This document shows positions 20,764-31,534 of a stretch of 42,012 bases of DNA, piece after piece. Every line of letters begins with the position of its first letter. The stretch's first letter is position 1. The notes below the pieces were generated by a model that had not been told where the DNA came from, ran no database searches, and saw nothing but the letters and a program-made list of their open reading frames with translations. The stretch is from NCBI GenBank assembly GCA_025774805.1, contig JALGZR010000031.1, positions 1 to 42,012 of the forward strand, given 5' to 3'. Both the position numbers and the translations under genes were made by a program. Source of the DNA: a bacterium (GTDB lineage Bacteria; ARS69).

Positions 20764-21098
20764 CGACGCCGGAGCTGTCCGGACCGGGGTTTGCCGGCCT
20801 TTCCGAGCGGGCGAAGCTCGAGCGGGCGGCCCGGGAGCTCGAGGCGATCGTGGTCACCCAGCTCCTGTCGACGATGCGACGTACCGTTCCTGACGGCGGG
20901 CTGCTGGAAAAGTCGGCCACCGAGGATCTCTTCCGCTCGCTGCTCGACGGGGAGATGGCGAGGGTGACGGGGGAGAAGAGCCCTTTCGGTCTCGCCAAGA
21001 CGGTCCTGGCGCAGTTCGAGAATCGGTTCAAGGAAGAGCCCGCCGGAACCGAAGGGCCGGGCGAGAGCTCGGCCCTCGGGAAGGCCCGGAGGATTTGA
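20760..21098 (+). CDS. flgJ: Rod-binding protein FlgJ, N-terminal domain only
   Basis: It caps and organises rod assembly. The 112-residue product corresponds only to the rod-binding domain: ERAARELEAIVVTQLLSTMRRTVPDGGLLEKSATEDLFRSLLDGEMA, matching the FlgJ_N helices. The muramidase domain of enterobacterial FlgJ is absent, as in many other phyla, so a separate lytic enzyme must open the peptidoglycan. GTG 20760 overlaps the flgI stop as GTGA, with GGAG upstream. The last 20 residues are low-complexity. Confidence 0.88.
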   Translation: MTTPELSGPGFAGLSERAKLERAARELEAIVVTQLLSTMRRTVPDGGLLEKSATEDLFRSLLDGEMARVTGEKSPFGLAKTVLAQFENRFKEEPAGTEGPGESSALGKARRI

Positions 21099-21517
21099 TG
21101 CCCGAAACGTTCGCGGACCGACTCGAGCGCTTCCGCGCTCTGGTCTCCGATCAGATCGTCGGCTACCGGCGACTGCTCGAGACGACCCGCGCCGGGACCC
21201 GGGCCCTGGAGCGCCAGGACGCGGACGAGTTCGACCGGATCCTGGCGGAGCAGGTCGACATCCTCCGCCGACTGAAGGAACACGAGAGAGAGCGTCGGAG
21301 CATGGTCCGGGAGGTCGGTTCCGGGGACCATGACAACGATCTCGGGCAGCTCCAGCGGGATCTGCGCCGGCTCGCCGAGGAGGTCAGTCGGGCGAACCGG
21401 GCCCACCGGCTCGTGATCGAGCGCAACGGAGCTCTCGTCGACGCGCGGATCTCCCTCCATCGACGGGTGGGAACCCTCGACCGGGTCGGGAAGCCGGGCA
21501 TCAATCAGTTCGCCTGA
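21098..21517 (+). CDS. flgN: Flagellar export chaperone FlgN
   Basis: It is a cytoplasmic helical chaperone for the hook-filament junction proteins FlgK and FlgL, which are encoded next. The 139-residue product is nearly all helix, with FlgN-like periodicity (YRRLLETTRAGTRALERQDADEF, EQVDILRRLKEHERERR) and a C-terminal helix NGALVDARISLHRR. ATG 21098 is favoured over the preceding TTG 21095 because GGAGGA would be too close to the TTG. It shares one base with the flgJ stop. Sequence conservation in this family is low, so the call leans on position and length. Confidence 0.82.
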   Translation: MPETFADRLERFRALVSDQIVGYRRLLETTRAGTRALERQDADEFDRILAEQVDILRRLKEHERERRSMVREVGSGDHDNDLGQLQRDLRRLAEEVSRANRAHRLVIERNGALVDARISLHRRVGTLDRVGKPGINQFA

Positions 21518-22936: not shown

Positions 22937-24508
22937 GTGCGCGTGACCGAGAACCTGATCGTACGGAACTTCTTGGCCCGCTCCGCCCGGACTCTCTCCG
23001 ACATGGCCTGGTGGCAGGAGCGGATCGCCTCCGGAAGAAAGGTCCTTCGTCCGTCGGACGACCCCCAGGACCTGCAGAAGATCCTGGCGCTCCGCACCGA
23101 CATCCGCCTGACGGAGGCCTACCGGGACAACGCCTCCTCCGCCACCGCGCACATGAGCCTCACCGAAAGCTCGCTCCAGGAGATCTCGGACCTGCTCTCC
23201 CGGGCAAAGGAGATCGTGCTAGAGGGGATGAACGCTCCGTCGGAAGGGGTCGGCACGGAAGCTCTCGTGAGGGACTTGCGGGCGATGATCGAAGAGCTAC
23301 TTCTGATCGCGAATCGCTCCGTCGGCGGGCGCTACCTGTTCGCGGGACAGCAGACGCGATCACCGGCCTACGTCCAGCACGGAGGCCGTCTCGTCTATCA
23401 AGGAGACATGGGGGACATCGTCGAGGAGCTCGGTCCCGGCCTCCGGGTCGTCATCAACCTCACCGGTCCGGGAGCGTTTCAGACCGTCCCGTCCCGCATC
23501 CTCGGATCCGTCGATCTCGACCCGTCCGTCTCCCGGATCACGGAGCTCGCCGATCTGTTCGGCGGCCGGGGGGTCACGCCCGGGCACATCCGCATCACCG
23601 ACTCGAACGACGTCTCGGCCACGCTCGACCTGATGTCCGCCACGAACCTCGGGCAGGTCGTCGACGCGATCAACAACGCGGGGACCGCCATTGTCGCCTC
23701 CTTCTCGGCCGACGGAAGCACGATCGAGCTGACCGACACCGGGGGCGGATCCTCGTTCCGGGTGGAGGACGCGGTCGATGGGAACTTCGCCAGGGCCCTC
23801 GGCCTCGCCACCACGTCCGAGACCGGGACGATCACCGGAGTGGATCTCGATCCCGCCGTGACCGAGAACACGGCGATCGCCCTCCTGCTCCGGGGCGCGG
23901 GGCTGCCCCCGGGGACGTGGTCGGTGCGCAACAACGCCGACGGCGAGGAACGTCTCGCGGTGATCGACCCGACCGAGGCGAACACGGTCGGGGACCTCAT
24001 CGACATGCTGAACACGGCCCGTACGCCGGACGGGCGGGACCTCGGGATCCGGGCCACCCTGGAGGACGCCTACCTGTCCCTCCGCAGCACACGGCTGCAC
24101 ACGTCGCTCTCCGTCTCGGACGACGGGGCTGGCACGAGCGCGATGGAATTGGGAATCGCCGGCGTGGGGGAGGCGAGGGATCTCTTCCAGCTTCTGGAAG
24201 ATGCGGCCGACGCCCTCGAAGGCAGGGATGCGGACAGGATCGACTCCATGATCGAGGCCCTCACGACCGCGATCGAGCGGACGGCGGGCGTCCGTGGGAC
24301 GTACGGAGCCCGCGCCCGTCAGGTCTTGGCCGTGGCCGCGAATCTCGACGACCAGACCGTGGACCTCACGATCCGCCTCTCCGACGTGGAGGACACCGAT
24401 CTGGCCCTCGCGGTTCTCCAGCTCAGGAAGGCCGAAACCGTGTACAATGCCTCACTGGCCTCGGGGACCCAGCTCCTCGGGGTGAATCTCTTCAACTACA
24501 TCCGGTGA
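22937..24508 (+). CDS. flgL: Flagellar hook-filament junction protein FlgL, enlarged
   Basis: It links FlgK to the filament and is flagellin-like at both ends: MRVTENLIVRNFLARSARTLSDMAWWQERIASGRKVLRPSDDPQD, and at the C-terminus LRKAETVYNASLASGTQLLGVNLFNYIR. At 523 residues it is far longer than the 317 of E. coli. The extra length (about residues 195-430) is beta-rich and contains flagellin-IN-like repeats (GHIRITDSNDV...LGQVVDAINNAGTAIVASFSADGSTIELTD), similar to segments in the flagellin and FliD of this window. GTG 22937 has GGAGGTGA six bases before it. Confidence 0.95.
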   Translation: MRVTENLIVRNFLARSARTLSDMAWWQERIASGRKVLRPSDDPQDLQKILALRTDIRLTEAYRDNASSATAHMSLTESSLQEISDLLSRAKEIVLEGMNAPSEGVGTEALVRDLRAMIEELLLIANRSVGGRYLFAGQQTRSPAYVQHGGRLVYQGDMGDIVEELGPGLRVVINLTGPGAFQTVPSRILGSVDLDPSVSRITELADLFGGRGVTPGHIRITDSNDVSATLDLMSATNLGQVVDAINNAGTAIVASFSADGSTIELTDTGGGSSFRVEDAVDGNFARALGLATTSETGTITGVDLDPAVTENTAIALLLRGAGLPPGTWSVRNNADGEERLAVIDPTEANTVGDLIDMLNTARTPDGRDLGIRATLEDAYLSLRSTRLHTSLSVSDDGAGTSAMELGIAGVGEARDLFQLLEDAADALEGRDADRIDSMIEALTTAIERTAGVRGTYGARARQVLAVAANLDDQTVDLTIRLSDVEDTDLALAVLQLRKAETVYNASLASGTQLLGVNLFNYIR

Positions 24509-24512
24509 TCCG

Positions 24513-24995
24513 ATGGGTGAGTCTGCGCAGTCCACGATTCGAATCGAGCATCCTCTGGCGAACGGGGAGGTGGTGGAGGCCGACGAACTCTGGGACTTCC
24601 CCGAGGGGTTGATCGGTCTTCCCGACTACCGGCGGTTCGCGCTTCTCCCGCTCCGCGGGGCCGAGCCCTTTCGGCTTCTCTGCTCCGCGGACGACGCCTC
24701 CTTCGGACTCGTTCTCGTGGACCCGTGCGCATTCGTGCCCGGGTACCGGCTCGCCCTCACCCCCGGGGATCTCACGCCCCTGGCGGACGAGAATCCGGAT
24801 CACCTGGAGATCCTCGTGCCCGTCGTCCTGCCGTCCGACGACACCGCCCTGACTCTGAACCTGAAGGGACCGATCGTCCTCTCGCTCCGGAGGCGGACGG
24901 GAGTGCAGCGCGTCTCTCCCGACGAGTCGCATCCGATTCGTTACGACCCCAGGGCCGCGCGGAGCGACCGCTCTTCTCCGGCATGCTCGTCCTGA
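24513..24995 (+). CDS. fliW: Flagellar assembly factor FliW
   Basis: FliW binds CsrA and also flagellin; in B. subtilis this partner switch ties flagellin translation to export. The 160-residue protein shows WDFPEGLIGLPDYRRFALLPL, FRLLCSADDASFGLVLVDP and LTLNLKGPIVLSLRRRTGVQ, typical of the family. ATG 24513 is four bases after the flgL stop and has only a weak Shine-Dalgarno (GGTGA). The last 13 bases overlap csrA, so the two are translationally coupled. The last 20 residues are not conserved. Confidence 0.94.
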   Translation: MGESAQSTIRIEHPLANGEVVEADELWDFPEGLIGLPDYRRFALLPLRGAEPFRLLCSADDASFGLVLVDPCAFVPGYRLALTPGDLTPLADENPDHLEILVPVVLPSDDTALTLNLKGPIVLSLRRRTGVQRVSPDESHPIRYDPRAARSDRSSPACSS

Positions 24996-25216
24996 CCCGC
25001 CGCACCGGGGAATGGATCTCCATCGGCGACGGCGTCACCGTCAAGGTGCTCGCGATCCGGGGCGATCAGGTCCAGCTCGGGATCGACGCCCCCCGTGAGG
25101 TCCGCGTCGACCGGGGCGAGATCCGGGAACTGATCCTCGCCGAAATGGAGGCGGCGCGGCGCTCCGCCGCCGATCCGGCGTCCCTGGCGCGGTGGATCGA
25201 CCGCAAAAAAGACTGA
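24983..25216 (+). CDS. csrA: Carbon storage regulator CsrA
   Basis: A dimeric RNA-binding protein that blocks translation by binding GGA motifs in hairpin loops. The product is 77 residues. Leu4 and Arg44, the main RNA contacts in E. coli CsrA, are both present (MLVLTRRTGEWISIGD; EVRVDRGEIREL). It is longer than the 61 residues of E. coli and carries a C-terminal helix extension (MEAARRSAADPASLARWID), the type of tail found in CsrA proteins paired with FliW. ATG 24983 lies inside the end of fliW. The most likely local target is the flagellin leader at 27214-27260. Confidence 0.95.
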   Translation: MLVLTRRTGEWISIGDGVTVKVLAIRGDQVQLGIDAPREVRVDRGEIRELILAEMEAARRSAADPASLARWIDRKKD

Positions 25217-25227
25217 CCTGGCCCCAA

Positions 25228-25263
25228 TTCGCGCAAAACTTCCCCGCGCGAACGCCCGATAGA
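25228..25263 (+). repeat. Inverted repeat and possible sigma-28-type -10 between csrA and the glycosyltransferase gene
   Basis: TTCGCGC (25228-25234) and GCGCGAA (25246-25252) are exact complements around an 11-base loop. No T-run follows, so it is not a clear terminator. Just downstream CCCGATAG (25255-25262) resembles a flagellar sigma-28 -10 element (GCCGATAA), with AAAAC about 16 bases before it. The promoter reading is weak. The 93-base gap does separate the flgF-csrA operon from the filament genes. Confidence 0.35.
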
Positions 25264-25309
25264 CCAAAGAAACGGAATCGAAACCCACCCTTCGCAAAGG
25301 GGCCCCATC

Positions 25310-27028
25310 ATGTCCGCGGCCGGACTCACCGTCGCGATGATCGTCCGGGACGAAGAGAGCAACCTCCGGGAGCTCCTGCCCGGCCTGGTCGACGTCGCCG
25401 ACGACGTCGTCATCGTCGACACGGGATCGTCCGACGGCTCGGTGAACCTGGCTCGCTCCCGGGGAGCCCGGGTGTTCGCGGCGCCGTGGGAAGACGACTT
25501 CGCAAAGGCCCGCAACCGGGGGCTGGAGGAAGTCCGGACCTCGCACGTCCTCTGGCTCGACGCCGACGACCGCATCGATCGGGAAGCCCTCTCGTCCGTG
25601 CGGCGAGAGGCCCTCGCGCGCCCCCAGACGGGGCTCATGCTCCTGCTCGTGAACGAGAGCGCCGACCCCAATGCGGTCTCCTCCTGTTGGCAGCTCCGGG
25701 TCTTCCCCTCCCGCCCCGAGCACCGTTTCGAAGGACGGATCCACGAGCAGATCCTGCCCGGGCTCGCGGCCACGGGGACTCCGGTGGAGAAGCTCGACGT
25801 GACCGTTCGGCACACCGGGTACGTGGATCCGGGGGAAGTCGCTCGCAAGTCCCGGAGGAACTTCGAGATGCTCCGGCGGGAGATCGCCGGGGGCCGCGAG
25901 AACGATGTCTCCGTTCTCCTGCACTACGTCAAGGCGGCCACGATGTGCGGGGAGATAGAGGAGGCCCTCGCGACCGCCCGCCGGTGCGTCGAGAGTCCGC
26001 CCCCCGAGACGCCGGCCGAGATCATCCAGTCCGCCGCCGTCACGTGGGCGCGCATCGAGTACGGGAGGAGGCGTGCGGACGAAGCTCTCCGCATCCTGGG
26101 CGAGGCGGTCGAGCGCGTGCCGGACGACCCCATCGTGCGGTTCTTCCGGGCCGACGCGCTCCGCCGTTCCGGTGATCTCACGGGAGCGCTGCGGGACCTG
26201 GAGGTGGCCCGCGCCGCCCCCGTGCGGTGCACGCTGCTCCCGCTGCCGGTGGCCGGCCTGGGTCGGGCCATCCGTCTGGAGATGGGGGAGCTGCAGGAGA
26301 TCTTCTGCCGACCGGCGGACGCGGCCGCTCTCTACCGGGAAATCCTCGATGATCAGCCGGAGGACCGCGCCGCCCGCCGCGCCCTGGCCCGCGCGCTCAT
26401 CGGGGCCTTCGCCCTGCGCGAGGCTCGGGAAGTGCTCGACGGGCTGGAGGACCGGCACGAGGACGCCGGCGAGGTCTGCCTCCTGCGAGCCACCCTGGCT
26501 TTTCAGGAGGGTCGGGACGCCGAGGCGGACGCCCTCTACGAGCGGGCCCTGGCGCTCCATCCCGGGGCCTGGGCGGCGTCGCTCCACCGGGGTCACATCG
26601 CGCTTCGCGGAGGCCGATTGGACGAGGCGCGGAGGCACTACGAGCGGGCCCTCTCCGTCGCGGACAACCCCGAGACGCGGGTGGGCCTCGCCGCGAGCCT
26701 CCTGGAGGGGGGACGGCTCACCGAGTGCCTCGACCACCTGGCCGAGGCGGTGGGCGCCTGTGTCGGCCGGCCCCTCCCCAGGGGAACCGAGGCGCTCTCG
26801 GGTGAGGCCCTCTATCGCATTGGGCGGTATATGGAAGCGGTCGGTGCCTTCGAAAACCACTTGAAGCGATGGGGAGCCGAAGCCCGGATCGTGAAGCGCC
26901 TGGCGGACTGCTATCGGAATCTCGAGGCCCCCGCGGCCGCCCGTCTGGGGTACGAGGAGGCCCTCCGGCTCGATCCCGGTCTCGTGGAGGCCAGCGAGGG
27001 CCTCCAGGCCCTGGAAACCGTCCACTAG
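25310..27028 (+). CDS. GT2 glycosyltransferase with TPR repeats, candidate flagellin glycosyltransferase
   Basis: A 572-residue soluble protein. Residues about 6-210 are a GT-A fold family 2 glycosyltransferase: AMIVRDEESNLRELL, VVIVDTGSSDGS, DDFAKARNRGLE and the nucleotide-sugar motif LDADD (Asp84 and Asp86). The remainder is a run of TPR-like helical hairpins (for example AEADALYERALALHPGAWAASL, RRHYERALSVADNPETRVGLAASLL, ARLGYEEALRLDPGLVEASEGL). The gene sits between csrA and flagellin, and TPR glycosyltransferases in that position commonly modify flagellin. The target and sugar here are inference. AAAGGGG precedes ATG 25310. No membrane segment is visible. Confidence 0.85.
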   Translation: MSAAGLTVAMIVRDEESNLRELLPGLVDVADDVVIVDTGSSDGSVNLARSRGARVFAAPWEDDFAKARNRGLEEVRTSHVLWLDADDRIDREALSSVRREALARPQTGLMLLLVNESADPNAVSSCWQLRVFPSRPEHRFEGRIHEQILPGLAATGTPVEKLDVTVRHTGYVDPGEVARKSRRNFEMLRREIAGGRENDVSVLLHYVKAATMCGEIEEALATARRCVESPPPETPAEIIQSAAVTWARIEYGRRRADEALRILGEAVERVPDDPIVRFFRADALRRSGDLTGALRDLEVARAAPVRCTLLPLPVAGLGRAIRLEMGELQEIFCRPADAAALYREILDDQPEDRAARRALARALIGAFALREAREVLDGLEDRHEDAGEVCLLRATLAFQEGRDAEADALYERALALHPGAWAASLHRGHIALRGGRLDEARRHYERALSVADNPETRVGLAASLLEGGRLTECLDHLAEAVGACVGRPLPRGTEALSGEALYRIGRYMEAVGAFENHLKRWGAEARIVKRLADCYRNLEAPAAARLGYEEALRLDPGLVEASEGLQALETVH

Positions 27029-27094
27029 GCGGCCCGTGCGGCGGCCTCCGGCAGGCCCCGACCGCGCCTCCGATTCGGAGGAGGGGAAAATTCC

Positions 27095-27122
27095 TCAAGC
27101 ACACGGCTTGATTCGTCGATCT
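27095..27122 (+). promoter_or_regulatory. Possible flagellin promoter (sigma-28-like)
   Basis: TCAAG (27095-27099) and GTCGATCT (27115-27122) are 15 bases apart and loosely fit the flagellar sigma-28 pattern (TAAA/TCAAG, then GCCGATAA). A degenerate -24/-12-like AAGCAC...TTGA overlaps it at 27097-27111, but both invariant sigma-54 dinucleotides are broken. Neither is strong. Transcription from here would give a leader of about 135 bases containing the two hairpins listed next. Upstream, CCTCCG/CGGAGG (27067-27081) forms a short hairpin after the glycosyltransferase gene. Confidence 0.3.
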
Positions 27123-27213
27123 TTCCGCCAGAGGGGATCCACCCTTCGACCTCCCCCGTCCCGTGCTTACGCGCGGGGCCGGTTCGGCTCCCGCCGGCCG
27201 GGGGGTGAGGAGC

Positions 27214-27231
27214 GCGGGCACGGAAGCCCGC
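27214..27231 (+). promoter_or_regulatory. Candidate CsrA site 1 in the flagellin leader
   Basis: GCGGGC (27214-27219) pairs perfectly with GCCCGC (27226-27231), leaving the hexaloop ACGGAA with a central GGA. A GGA presented in a hexaloop is the preferred CsrA binding form. An alternative stem GGCACG/CGTGCC (27218-27223 with 27231-27236) uses overlapping bases and would hide the GGA, so the two structures exclude each other. Confidence 0.6.
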
Positions 27232-27243
27232 GTGCCGATCAGA

Positions 27244-27260
27244 GGAACACGGAGGTTTCC
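27244..27260 (+). promoter_or_regulatory. Candidate CsrA site 2 covering the flagellin Shine-Dalgarno
   Basis: GGAAC (27244-27248) pairs with GTTTCC (27255-27260) with one bulged T, giving the hexaloop ACGGAG. The GGAGG Shine-Dalgarno (27251-27255), 10 bases before the flagellin ATG, lies in the loop and the first paired base. Bound CsrA would therefore block ribosome entry. Its GGA is 29 bases from that of site 1, a spacing one CsrA dimer could bridge. The layout parallels the two-site hag leader of B. subtilis. Confidence 0.65.
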
Positions 27261-27265
27261 CAGAA

Positions 27266-28981
27266 ATGAGTCTCCGAATCAACCACAACCGGGGAGCGCT
27301 GAACGCCTGGCGCCACCTGACGAACAACGATTTCCGGATGAACCGGTCCCTGGAGCGGCTTTCGTCCGGACTGCGGATCAACTCCGCCGCCGACGATCCG
27401 GCGGGGCTCTCGATCTCGGAGAAGCTGCGGGCTCAGGTGGCCAGCCTGAACCAAGCGGTCGAGAACTCCGAGCAGGCCATGTCGATGATCAACACGGCCG
27501 AGGCCGCTCTGAACGAGATTCACAACCTGCTGACGACGATGCGCGAGCTCTCGATCCACGCCGCCAACGAGGGCGTGAACGACGAGACGGCGCTGAACGC
27601 CGACCAGCAGCAGATCCAGTCCTCTCTCGACACGATCACGAGGATCGCGAACACCACGCAGTTCGGCACGAAGAACCTCCTGGACGGGTCGACCGACAAC
27701 AAGGTCTACACTCTGGGCGGGGCCGCCATCGGCCTGACGCAGGCGTCGAACTCCACGCTGGCCAGCGGGACCCACACGCTGACCGTCGCGAACGTGACGG
27801 CGGCCGCGGGTAGCTACGTCAGCGAGGTCACGGCCTCGAACGCGGGGCTGGACAACACCGTCGATCCGACCCCTTCGGGCCTGACCGCCGGAACCCACAT
27901 CGTGACCGTGAGGGCGGCGACCTCCGCGTTCATTGAGAGTGACCAGACGCTCGGCGAGACGATCATCGAGTCGGGCGCCATCATGACCGTGACGGACGGC
28001 ACGAACTCTGCGGGCATCACGTTCGCCAGTGACACCGTCAATACCGCCCAGAACATCGCGGACGCGATCAACGCGGGCACGGCCTTGTTCGTGGCTTCCG
28101 TCGGACTCGACGGGTCGCTCAAGGTCGAGACGGCCGACGTCGGTGGTACCCAGCAGATCGCCATCACCGTCGACGGGACGAACATCACGCGGGCCGACCT
28201 CGGGATGAGCACTCTGACCGGATCCAACGGCACCACCGCCACGATCCAGCTCGGTGCCGGAGAGACCCAGGAGCTCTCGAACACCGCGGGCACGATCACG
28301 CTGACCGACGGTCTCGGCGGGCAGCTCGTTCTCGATACGGCGGCGACCTCCCAGGCGGCGTTCGCCAGCGCGACGCTGGAAATCAGCGTCAGTTCGGCGA
28401 CGTTCGACGTCTCCCTCGACAACGGGGACTCGGTCACGATGCGTTCCGACGTGGCCGGTACCGTCCAGTCCGGACTGGCCTCGGGCGGTCAGCTCAGCGT
28501 CGTCTTCGGCAGCGGGGTGACGGCGGGCAGCGGCAGCATCTCGGTGCTGGACAACGCCCTCGTCTTCCAGGTCGGAGCGAACTTCGGACAGAGCGTGAAG
28601 ATCGGCGTTCAGGACATGGAGGCGTCTCAACTCGGGACGGGAGTCGCCAACATCTCGAACTTCTCGAACCTGAACGAGATCGACGTGACCACCGCGCAGG
28701 GGGCGGCCGACGCGTTGCTCCTGATCGACGATGCGATCGACGCGGTGTCGAGCGCCCGGGCCGAGCTCGGTGCGTTTCAGCGGAACACGCTGGAGTCGAA
28801 CCTGGCCAACCTGCGGATCGCCGCGGAGAACCTCTCCTCGGCGGAGTCGACCTTCCGCGATGCCGACCTGGCCCTCGAGATGGCGGAGTTCACGAAGCTC
28901 CAGATTCTCGCCCAGACCGGTGTCGCCATGATGGCGCAGGCGAACCAGATTCCGCAGACGGTTCTCCGTCTGATCGGGTAG
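27266..28981 (+). CDS. fliC: Flagellin
   Basis: The filament protein, 571 residues. The D0/D1 ends are classic: MSLRINHNRGALNAWRHL, RSLERLSSGLRINSAADDPAGLSISEKLRAQ and IHNLLTTMRELSIHAANE at the N-terminus; FRDADLALEMAEFTKLQILAQTGVAMMAQANQIPQTVLRLIG at the C-terminus. The middle (about residues 145-455) is a surface-exposed, beta-rich part full of Thr, Ser, Ala and Gly, with at least one flagellin-IN-like segment (about 28000-28150). Its many Ser/Thr residues could carry O-glycans, consistent with the upstream glycosyltransferase. It is the only flagellin gene here. The leader contains two candidate CsrA sites. Confidence 0.97.
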   Translation: MSLRINHNRGALNAWRHLTNNDFRMNRSLERLSSGLRINSAADDPAGLSISEKLRAQVASLNQAVENSEQAMSMINTAEAALNEIHNLLTTMRELSIHAANEGVNDETALNADQQQIQSSLDTITRIANTTQFGTKNLLDGSTDNKVYTLGGAAIGLTQASNSTLASGTHTLTVANVTAAAGSYVSEVTASNAGLDNTVDPTPSGLTAGTHIVTVRAATSAFIESDQTLGETIIESGAIMTVTDGTNSAGITFASDTVNTAQNIADAINAGTALFVASVGLDGSLKVETADVGGTQQIAITVDGTNITRADLGMSTLTGSNGTTATIQLGAGETQELSNTAGTITLTDGLGGQLVLDTAATSQAAFASATLEISVSSATFDVSLDNGDSVTMRSDVAGTVQSGLASGGQLSVVFGSGVTAGSGSISVLDNALVFQVGANFGQSVKIGVQDMEASQLGTGVANISNFSNLNEIDVTTAQGAADALLLIDDAIDAVSSARAELGAFQRNTLESNLANLRIAAENLSSAESTFRDADLALEMAEFTKLQILAQTGVAMMAQANQIPQTVLRLIG

Positions 28982-28992
28982 TCAGCAGCTTC

Positions 28993-29022
28993 GGGGGGAG
29001 GGTCCTTCACGGCCCTCCTCCC
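28993..29022 (+). terminator. Strong hairpin after the flagellin gene, without a T-run
   Basis: GGGGGGAGGG (28993-29002) pairs with CCCTCCTCCC (29013-29022) over 10 positions with a single G-U pair, around a 10-base loop. It starts 12 bases after the flagellin stop. The tail is not T-rich, so rather than a full intrinsic terminator it may protect the flagellin mRNA end and reduce read-through into flaG. Confidence 0.5.
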
Positions 29023-29050
29023 GACTCGCCCCGATTGACGGAGGTTCGCC

Positions 29051-29476
29051 ATGAGCACTCAACCCGTCTCCCAGCCGGGAGCGAACCTGACCGGAGGGGT
29101 CCCCCGGGTCCCTCCCTCGGGGGAGCGGGGTGCCGCCGGGACGAAGGGAGTGAGCGGAGGAAGGGTGACGGCGACGCCTCAGGAGATCGCCGGGGACATC
29201 CAGAACGCCCGCGACGAGACCGACCGCCTCACGCGTCCCGATCGCAAGGTGACGCGGGAACGGCTCGAGGAGGTCGTCCGGGTCGCCGCCGCGGACATCG
29301 AGGCGCTGAATCAGGACCTGGGTTTCCGGGTGCACGACGGCTCGGGACAGCTCATGGTCGAGATCGTGCAGCGGGAAACGGGAGAGGTCATTCGGACGCA
29401 GCCCCCGGAGGAGTTCCTGGACCTCGCGGTCCGAATCCGGGAAATGGTCGGGCTCTTCATCGATGAGACGACATAG
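29051..29476 (+). CDS. flaG: FlaG family flagellar protein
   Basis: FlaG proteins influence filament length and often lie next to fliD. The 141-residue product has a low-complexity Gly/Pro-rich first third and the FlaG core at the C-terminus: LNQDLGFRVHDGSGQLMVEI, QRETGEVIRTQPPEEFLDLAVRIREMVGLFID. The (I)RTQPPEE segment corresponds to the conserved IRQIPPEE of the family. ATG 29051 has GGAGG about 10 bases upstream. The biochemical role is unclear even in well-studied bacteria. Confidence 0.9.
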   Translation: MSTQPVSQPGANLTGGVPRVPPSGERGAAGTKGVSGGRVTATPQEIAGDIQNARDETDRLTRPDRKVTRERLEEVVRVAAADIEALNQDLGFRVHDGSGQLMVEIVQRETGEVIRTQPPEEFLDLAVRIREMVGLFIDETT

Positions 29477-29478
29477 CG

Positions 29479-29508
29479 GCCCGGCCTCTCCCGGCCGAAG
29501 TGCCGGGC
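29479..29508 (+). repeat. Inverted repeat between flaG and fliD
   Basis: GCCCGGC (29479-29485) and GCCGGGC (29502-29508) are exact complements around a 16-base segment that itself contains CCGGCCG. It begins two bases after the flaG stop and ends just before the G-rich ribosome binding region of fliD. It may modulate read-through or fliD translation; no T-run is present. Confidence 0.4.
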
Positions 29509-29524
29509 GGGGATGGGGGGAATC

Positions 29525-31534
29525 ATGAGCACGAACTACATCGCGGGGCTGGTCTCCGGGGTCGACACGACCAGCCTCATCGACGCCCTGGTCGCATCAC
29601 GCTCCGCCACCGTTCGCCTCATCGAGGCGCGGCAGGCCGAGAAGACGGCTCAGCTCAGTGCGTGGAAGTCGTTCGAGGCGATCCTCGTCTCTCTGAAGGT
29701 GGAGAGCGATCGTCTCACCCGCTCCTCGCTCTGGGAGACCCCCCACGTCACGACCAGCGACGAGGAGATTCTCCAGGTCACGGCGGACTCAGACGCGGTG
29801 CTCGACTCGTACGAGTTCTTCGTCGGGAGCCTCGCCCAGGCCCACCAGGTCCGGTCGGTGGCCTTCGATGCGAAGACCGAGCTCGTGGGGAGCGGTACGC
29901 TCTCCATCACGGTGGGGAGTGACACGACGGACCTCACCGTGAGCTCGGACGTCTCGGCCGAGGACCTCGTCGAGCTCATCAACAACAGCGACCTCGCGGC
30001 GACGGCGTCGCTCGTCCGCAGCGTCGATGCGGGGGCGGACTCCTACACGATCGTCCTGACCGCCGACGAGACGGGGGTGACCAACGCGATCAGCGTGACC
30101 TCCACCCTGACCGGGGGAACCGATCCCGTATTCGACGAAACGGTGCGCGAAGCCCAGGACGCCGTCCTCCACTTCGGGGGGGAAGGCGGTCTCGAGCTGA
30201 AGTCGCCCACGAACGTGTTCGAGGACGTCATCGAGGGTGTCGACATCACCGTGCTCCGATCCCAGCAGACCCAGGACCCGAGCGTGACGGTGACCGTCGC
30301 GAGGAATACGGAAGCGGTCGAGTCGGCTCTCGCCGACTTCGTGGACCGCTACAACACGGCGGTGGGATTCGTGAACGACCAGTTCCGCTACGATCCGGAG
30401 ATCGGCACCCGCCCGGTGCTCATGGGGAGCGGAACACTCACGATGATCGCCGGCAACCTCCGCTCCGAGCTCTTCGGAGCGATCGAGGGCCTCGCCGGGG
30501 ATGCGACGTTCCGCTCGCTGGCGGCCATGGGGATCTCGTCGACGGCGGACGGAACACTTTCGATCGACTCCGACGACCTGCACGCGGCCTTGGAGGAGGA
30601 CTTCGAAGCGGTCGCGAATCTCTTCCGGGTGAACGCCTCCTTCGATCTCGAGGGAATCGAGTTCCTCGGAGCTCCCGACGGGGCCGACCTCGCCGCACGG
30701 GAGGTCGCGATCTCGGTCACGCAGGCCGCGACCCGGGCGACCGTCACCGGGGATCTCTTCGATCTGGGGGCCGGCGGTCTCACGATCGACGCCTCGAACG
30801 ACTCCTTCCAGATCGCGATCGACGGACGGCTCTCGGAGGTGCTGACCGTCGCGCACGGCACGTACTCGGACGGGGACAGCCTCGCCGGGGCCATCCAAAA
30901 CGCGATCGAGGCCAGCGACGACCTCGGACAGCTCGGAGTTCAGGTCGTATTCGAAGCCGGATCGGGCACCACCGGACAGCTCGTCTTCACCTCGAACCGG
31001 TACGGGTCGGACGGCACGATCCGTCTCCAGCCCGGCGGCGGGGGAAGCTTCCTCTCCGATCTGGGGCTCTCCTCGGTCAGCAGCATCGAGTTCGCCGGCG
31101 AAGACCTGATCGCGACCGTCGACGGCGTATCGGTGACGGGGCAGGGAAGGGTGATCACCGTGCCGGACGAACTGGAAGACCTGGCCGGAGCGAGGTTCCA
31201 GATCCTTCTCCCCGAGGGAGACGTTCCGGCCACGGTGACCGCGACCTTCACCGAAGGGCACGCTCGATCCCTGACGCGCGCTCTCGCGACGCTGACCGAC
31301 GCGAACGAGGGGACCCTGGCCCGGATGGGAACGAGTCTCCGGGCGCAGATCGATCGTTACGACCGCGACATCGAAGTGAGGATGGAACAGCTGGAGAAGT
31401 ACCGGGCGTCTCTGCAACGCCGGTACGCCGAACTGGAGTCCACCCTGGGACAGCTTCAGAATCAGAGCCTATTTCTGAGCTCGCAGCTCCAAGCGATGCG
31501 ATCCCTGGGCGGCTTCGGCCTGACGGAAACCTAG
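29525..31534 (+). CDS. fliD: Flagellar filament cap protein FliD
   Basis: It caps the growing filament and folds exported flagellin. The 669-residue protein starts YIAGLVSGVDTTSLIDALV (FliD_N) with a following helix (RLIEARQAEKTAQLSAWKSFEAIL), then beta-rich domains, then FliD_C: FVDRYNTAVGFVNDQFRYDPE, LMGSGTLTMIAGNLRSELF, LAAMGISSTADGTLSID, and the final coiled coil EVRMEQLEKYRASLQRRYAELESTLGQL. It is longer than the 468 residues of E. coli; the extra part (about 30750-31150) is a further beta domain with flagellin-IN-like repeats. ATG 29525, directly behind GGGGGGAA, is preferred to ATG 29513 in the same frame. Confidence 0.96.
   Translation: MSTNYIAGLVSGVDTTSLIDALVASRSATVRLIEARQAEKTAQLSAWKSFEAILVSLKVESDRLTRSSLWETPHVTTSDEEILQVTADSDAVLDSYEFFVGSLAQAHQVRSVAFDAKTELVGSGTLSITVGSDTTDLTVSSDVSAEDLVELINNSDLAATASLVRSVDAGADSYTIVLTADETGVTNAISVTSTLTGGTDPVFDETVREAQDAVLHFGGEGGLELKSPTNVFEDVIEGVDITVLRSQQTQDPSVTVTVARNTEAVESALADFVDRYNTAVGFVNDQFRYDPEIGTRPVLMGSGTLTMIAGNLRSELFGAIEGLAGDATFRSLAAMGISSTADGTLSIDSDDLHAALEEDFEAVANLFRVNASFDLEGIEFLGAPDGADLAAREVAISVTQAATRATVTGDLFDLGAGGLTIDASNDSFQIAIDGRLSEVLTVAHGTYSDGDSLAGAIQNAIEASDDLGQLGVQVVFEAGSGTTGQLVFTSNRYGSDGTIRLQPGGGGSFLSDLGLSSVSSIEFAGEDLIATVDGVSVTGQGRVITVPDELEDLAGARFQILLPEGDVPATVTATFTEGHARSLTRALATLTDANEGTLARMGTSLRAQIDRYDRDIEVRMEQLEKYRASLQRRYAELESTLGQLQNQSLFLSSQLQAMRSLGGFGLTET

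Follow-up and report, generated by a model that had tools for sequence, protein, structure and literature searches.

Within the papers that could be searched, studies of the RNA operator of flagellin genes that is bound by CsrA are confined to a few Bacillota and Campylobacter, and no survey of this operator across phyla was found in the searched literature, most subscription papers lying outside it. In the Hag-FliW-CsrA system of Bacillus subtilis, the flagellin leader has two CsrA sites, one of them over the Shine-Dalgarno sequence, and the CsrA protein has a long C-terminal tail, all of which is also seen in the locus described here. The gene order of B. subtilis, which we take to be flgK-flgL-...-fliW-csrA before flagellin with fliW and csrA adjacent, is likewise similar. 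In Campylobacter jejuni the flaA leader has two ANGGA stem-loops, the second over the ribosome-binding site, with compensatory changes (PMC4894983). In Clostridioides difficile, hairpins are predicted for both CsrA sites of fliC (-45 to -34 and -20 to -9), of which only the Shine-Dalgarno site was required in a reporter (PMC11898703). The sequence selected by CsrA in SELEX experiments, RUACARGGAUGU, has a six-base loop that is closed by the pairing of AC with GU (PMC7652899).

The present leader shares with that of C. jejuni flaA a pair of stem-loops that display ANGGA in their loops and of which the second is at the ribosome site, and its loops, which start at -46 and -17 from the flagellin ATG, fit the site positions of C. 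difficile fliC. It differs from B. subtilis in having a glycosyltransferase/TPR gene between csrA and flagellin, and from C. jejuni in lineage and sequence; unlike both, its CsrA is without Asn55. The CsrA/RsmA systems of the Gammaproteobacteria share the loop motif and the RNA-binding protein family, but there the antagonists are small RNA sponges of the CsrB/RsmY type, whereas this locus has fliW; BarA-UvrY is anti-correlated with FliW (PMC4682653).

The flagellar locus and its leader hairpins

The window, i.e., the whole stretch of DNA that was analysed, is an entire 42-kb contig of a 5.1-Mb genome in 284 contigs. Its flagellar cluster runs in the order flgF/G-type rods, flgA, flgH, flgI, flgN, flgK, flgL, fliW, csrA, the glycosyltransferase/TPR gene, flagellin, flaG, fliD and fliS, followed by two-component systems with sigma-54 activators. 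The features that concern the proposed switch are:

24513 to 24995, + strand: fliW, putative CsrA antagonist (PF02623, E 1.2e-25)
24983 to 25216, + strand: csrA, 77 aa (PF02599, E 3e-21)
25310 to 27028, + strand: glycosyltransferase family 2 and TPR protein (PF00535, E 3e-14; TPR families)
27095 to 27122, + strand: candidate sigma-28-type flagellin promoter, TCAA-N16-GTCGATCT, read by eye
27212 to 27233, + strand: site 1, upstream CsrA-type hairpin, 8-bp stem, hexaloop ACGGAA closed by C-G
27244 to 27260, + strand: site 2, second CsrA-type hairpin, 5-bp stem, hexaloop ACGGAG holding the Shine-Dalgarno sequence
27266 to 28981, + strand: flagellin (fliC/hag), the proposed regulated gene (PF00669, E 9e-35; PF00700, E 1e-22)

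A search of the genome returned this flagellin as the only one besides FlgL, and a single CsrA. FliW is encoded beside CsrA, the two genes overlapping by 13 nt (24983-24995); it matches the solved FliW 5dmb_A (E 1.9e-11), while residues 2-70 of CsrA match 5dmb_D, the CsrA of the FliW complex (E 4.2e-13). The RNA-binding residues Leu4 (start MLVL) and Arg44 of CsrA are present and the C-terminus is extended. The original prediction had claimed a CsrA with these two residues and a long tail, overlapped by FliW, together with the same parts as the B. subtilis FliW-CsrA-hag switch. The Pfam matches and the alignment bear out the first claim, and two leader sites, fliW, csrA and flagellin were all found.

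The gene between csrA and flagellin, in which a family 2 glycosyltransferase is fused to TPR repeats, might serve flagellin glycosylation, and any part of it in the switch would be conjectural. A counterpart of the candidate promoter, TCAA-N16-GCCGATGA, stands at a comparable place 5' of the flagellin gene of a relative in the same family (G003). Rfam covariance models gave no match to 24400-29600 up to E = 1.

The core of site 1, GCGGGC-ACGGAA-GCCCGC at 27214-27231, extends to 8 pairs, the outermost a G.U; in folding calculations the hairpin alone reaches -16.3 kcal/mol, and the leader ensemble leaves its GGA unpaired with probability 0.97. Site 2, GGAAC-ACGGAG-GTTTC(C), forms 5 pairs if one G.U or a bulge is accepted and is predicted to be weak (-2.7 kcal/mol, closing pair probability 0.29 in the ensemble); despite this weak stem, its GGA is unpaired at 0.85-0.88. 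Its loop contains the Shine-Dalgarno sequence GGAGG (27251-27255). Both sites read the full CsrA consensus C-ANGGAN-G, with a hexaloop closed by C-G in each, and both match the SELEX consensus; the two loops are spaced by 29 nt. The original prediction had thus placed both hairpins correctly (27214-27231 and 27244-27260, with GGA in each hexaloop) and had rightly assigned the Shine-Dalgarno sequence to the second, whereas the perfect 6-bp stem that it described for the first is real but extends further.

The Shine-Dalgarno CGGAG is also complementary to CTCCG in flagellin codons 3-5 (27250-27276), and a GGAG/CTCC complementarity recurs in the two related members of the family; pairing of this kind might form an alternative structure in which the ribosome site is hidden. 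It could be argued that such RNA structure is all there is, the Shine-Dalgarno sequence pairing with codons 3-5 and the upstream stem merely stabilising the message. The minimum-energy fold of 27150-27300 (151 nt) indeed makes the CGGAG/CTCCG pairing, but the fold of 27205-27300 disfavours it, and structure alone leaves unexplained why ANGGAN loops occur upstream of flagellin far above shuffles and together with FliW. This explanation is regarded as highly improbable.

Another explanation is coincidence, since GC-rich DNA abounds in GGA hexaloops and every Shine-Dalgarno sequence contains GGA. The window holds 34 looser hexaloop hairpins (NNGGAN, any closing pair, stem of at least 5), so that in such GC-rich DNA a GGA in a hexaloop is by itself unremarkable. 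The full consensus is rare, however: C-ANGGAN-G hexaloops on stems of at least 5 bp number 4 on both strands (84 kb; 3 on the + strand, 1 on the - strand), two of them within the 50-nt flagellin leader, and with a stem of at least 7 bp the only one on either strand is site 1. What stands out is that the consensus is complete, that two sites lie together at the start codon, and that they are conserved. A third C-ANGGAN-G hairpin (21025-21040) has a 5-bp stem and the loop AAGGAA; situated some 65 nt upstream of the flgN ORF (21095-21517), it may be a further CsrA site or a product of chance.

Conservation of the leader in relatives and across bacteria

The closest flagellins, at 77% identity, are those of G001 (L032, 'Gemmatimonadetes' HKST-UBA01) and G003 (L033, 'Gemmatimonadota' DHS20C21), followed by those of Poribacteria at 44-45%. 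The pair of sites is kept in all three flagellated members of the window's family and in two Poribacteria (L038, and G028, which is taken as a poribacterium from its likeness to L038), and the stem sequences differ. Site 1 reads CGTGGGC-AAGGAA-GCCCGCG in G001, GCGAGC-AAGGAT-GCTCGT in G003 and TGCGGGC-AGGGAG-GCCCGCA in G028; each of these three has C-AAGGAG-G at the Shine-Dalgarno sequence, on stems unlike that of the window. Two family members that are devoid of flagellin (G002 and G004) are also devoid of FliW and CsrA, a pattern of loss that has been noted in non-flagellated Campylobacter (PMC4894983). A further genome, L171 / G121, encodes a flagellin with 66% N-terminal identity to that of the window, and FliW; CsrA was not found in it (the genome is 84% complete), and a 9-bp C-AAGGAC-G hairpin lies far upstream, at -125.

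The survey was extended to 145 genomes, about one per family. FliW is present in 48 of them, CsrA in 51 and both in 46 (p about 1e-29, a value that, like the other p-value given here, is indicative only, as cells and leaders count sequences and not independent events). Flagellin was found in 46 of the 48 genomes with FliW versus 9 of 80 without it. Site 1 was defined as C-ANGGAN-G on a stem of at least 4, between -120 and -19, and was sought in 65 leaders, taken from the 43 FliW-bearing genomes in which the start of flagellin could be read. It is present in 29 of the leaders and 27 of the genomes, against a mean of 0.14 and a maximum of 2 in dinucleotide shuffles; the remaining 16 genomes do not satisfy this strict rule. 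In flagellates devoid of FliW it was seen in none of 10 leaders (8 genomes). The rule was framed after the first leaders had been read, and among the genomes read only afterwards 12 of 21 have the site. It was also found in 30 of 63 flagellin leaders versus 4 of 786 other gene starts.

In 40 sites that were chosen by the loop motif only, 71.6% of the stem cells are paired, compared with 49.0% when shuffled and 29-39% when slid, and the covariation score is 0.538 versus 0.176 for shuffled sites. At the Shine-Dalgarno sequence, C-ANGGAN-G occurs in 52 of 63 flagellin leaders of FliW-bearing genomes, the figure for control genes that have a strong Shine-Dalgarno sequence being 11 of 107; the motif is accompanied by a perfect stem of at least 4 in 17 of the 63, or in 27 if one bulge or mismatch is allowed. 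As a selected structure, the site 2 stem thus appears less well supported than that of site 1. Among the 26 leaders with both sites, the loops are a median of 26 nt apart.

Site 1 together with FliW was seen in named Poribacteria, SAR324, Desulfatibia and other deltaproteobacterial MAGs, as well as in Acetomicrobium, Muiribacterium, Thermaerobacter, Clostridia and Bacillus. Within this named set the contrast is weaker, the site being present in 20 of 34 genomes with FliW and 3 of 16 without (p = 0.014), the latter all Planctomycetes. These planctomycetal leaders with CsrA-type hairpins (L054, L060 and L062) raise the possibility that CsrA may use such flagellin-leader sites in the absence of FliW. 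In SAR324 and related MAGs (L034, L041, L042), unusually strong hairpins surround the flagellin Shine-Dalgarno sequence (TAATCTAC-AGGGAG-GTAGATTA), and each of several flagellin paralogues has such a site.

A chance origin of the leader hairpins was rejected on the window counts, the shuffles, the covariation and the gene-start controls; a pair that is conserved in relatives with compensatory changes and is linked to FliW makes coincidence scarcely credible. The original prediction would have been undermined by a failure of the hairpins to persist in relatives, and the two-site leader is kept both in the family and in distant phyla. The test that it suggested, for co-variation in the two stems, came out in favour at site 1, which shows compensatory changes, whereas at site 2 it is the motif that is enriched and the stem is less supported. 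It had also suggested that the circuit would reach well beyond Bacillota and Campylobacterota. This is so for the two-hairpin operator, found in many lineages, but the conservation of the switch proteins in deep branches had already been stated (PMC6529632; PMC4682653).

The putative contact between FliW and CsrA

FliW binding requires Asn55 of CsrA in both B. subtilis and C. jejuni, and this residue was reported to be identical across all FliW-containing species examined (PMC7829508). In the alignment made here it is present in 44 of 50 FliW-linked CsrAs. All three members of the window's family are among the six that lack it, with Met (window, where a one-residue helix deletion could also explain the sequence, with no Asn there either way), Thr and Thr (L215, L216). 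Ile51, the other FliW-binding position of CsrA, is retained in the family. On the other side of the contact, the FliW of the window departs from the consensus at three well-kept positions (C57 for Q, L66 for F and S124 for N), and across the three family members Q57 is changed to C, V and A and N124 to S, A and S. The family FliW proteins score 79-90 bits against the Pfam model versus 95-138 for most others. No link between the loss of Asn55 and changes at Q57 and N124 of FliW was seen outside the family, where the other three genomes without Asn55 keep Q/Q/H and N/D/N at these positions.

Asn55 is found in the members that have been studied and is not known to be indispensable to the wider family of switches; its loss by itself does not show that FliW binding is lost, the contact having been defined in two species. 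The original prediction had overlooked this loss, which makes the FliW arm of the switch less certain than the RNA arm. From these substitutions, the contact in the family may be compensated, looser or uncoupled. In an uncoupled variant, CsrA would repress through the two hairpins and the family FliW would no longer control it by the known contact, acting as a flagellin chaperone only, or CsrA would be relieved otherwise. The missing Asn55, the low Pfam scores and the changes at Q57 and N124 speak for such a variant. Against it, fliW still overlaps csrA and comes after flgL as in other genomes, G002 and G004 have lost FliW along with CsrA and flagellin, and Ile51 is kept; moreover, a joint change in both partners fits a compensated interface as well. 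Full uncoupling in this sense is considered unlikely. The broader idea, that the CsrA-flagellin operator was kept while the FliW-CsrA contact was either rebuilt, through the changes at Asn55, Q57 and N124, or given up, is put forward tentatively, as a possibility clearly short of even.

A proposed flagellin homeostasis switch

The leader is, with good probability, an operator of the hag/flaA type through which CsrA controls translation, within a FliW-controlled flagellin homeostasis switch. The DNA itself shows two consensus sites that are conserved and covary, and the genes for FliW, CsrA and flagellin, which across genomes tend to be present or absent together; the RNA half of the switch is well supported, resting on direct signs of selection, and the FliW half is likely, perhaps by way of an altered interface. 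Binding, bridging, repression and release by FliW are carried over from B. subtilis, C. jejuni and C. difficile. By this analogy, a CsrA dimer would grip the high-affinity upstream hairpin and bridge to the weaker second site, where CsrA over the Shine-Dalgarno loop would block ribosomes from the flagellin message. FliW, produced alongside CsrA from the overlapping gene pair, would remove CsrA as long as flagellin is exported and FliW is free; unexported flagellin would occupy FliW and leave CsrA free, so that flagellin synthesis would shut itself off. Since C. difficile needs the Shine-Dalgarno site only, the cooperation of two sites should not be taken for granted.

The proposed flagellin-FliW-CsrA homeostasis switch of this locus belongs to a known type, with broad comparative support and one unexplained departure, that of Asn55. 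Flagellar control has been proposed to be the ancestral job of CsrA-FliW (PMC4894983), and a two-hairpin operator that shows covariation and occurs in step with FliW in many families supports this role; judged from the sequence comparisons, the site pair across many lineages supports an ancient flagellum-assembly switch. The two-hairpin operator gives a sequence signature by which the switch can be found. If the contact has indeed been rebuilt or given up, FliW would control flagellin in this family by a route unlike any in the species studied so far. In either case, a family without Asn55 is a natural setting in which to test the recognition of CsrA by FliW.
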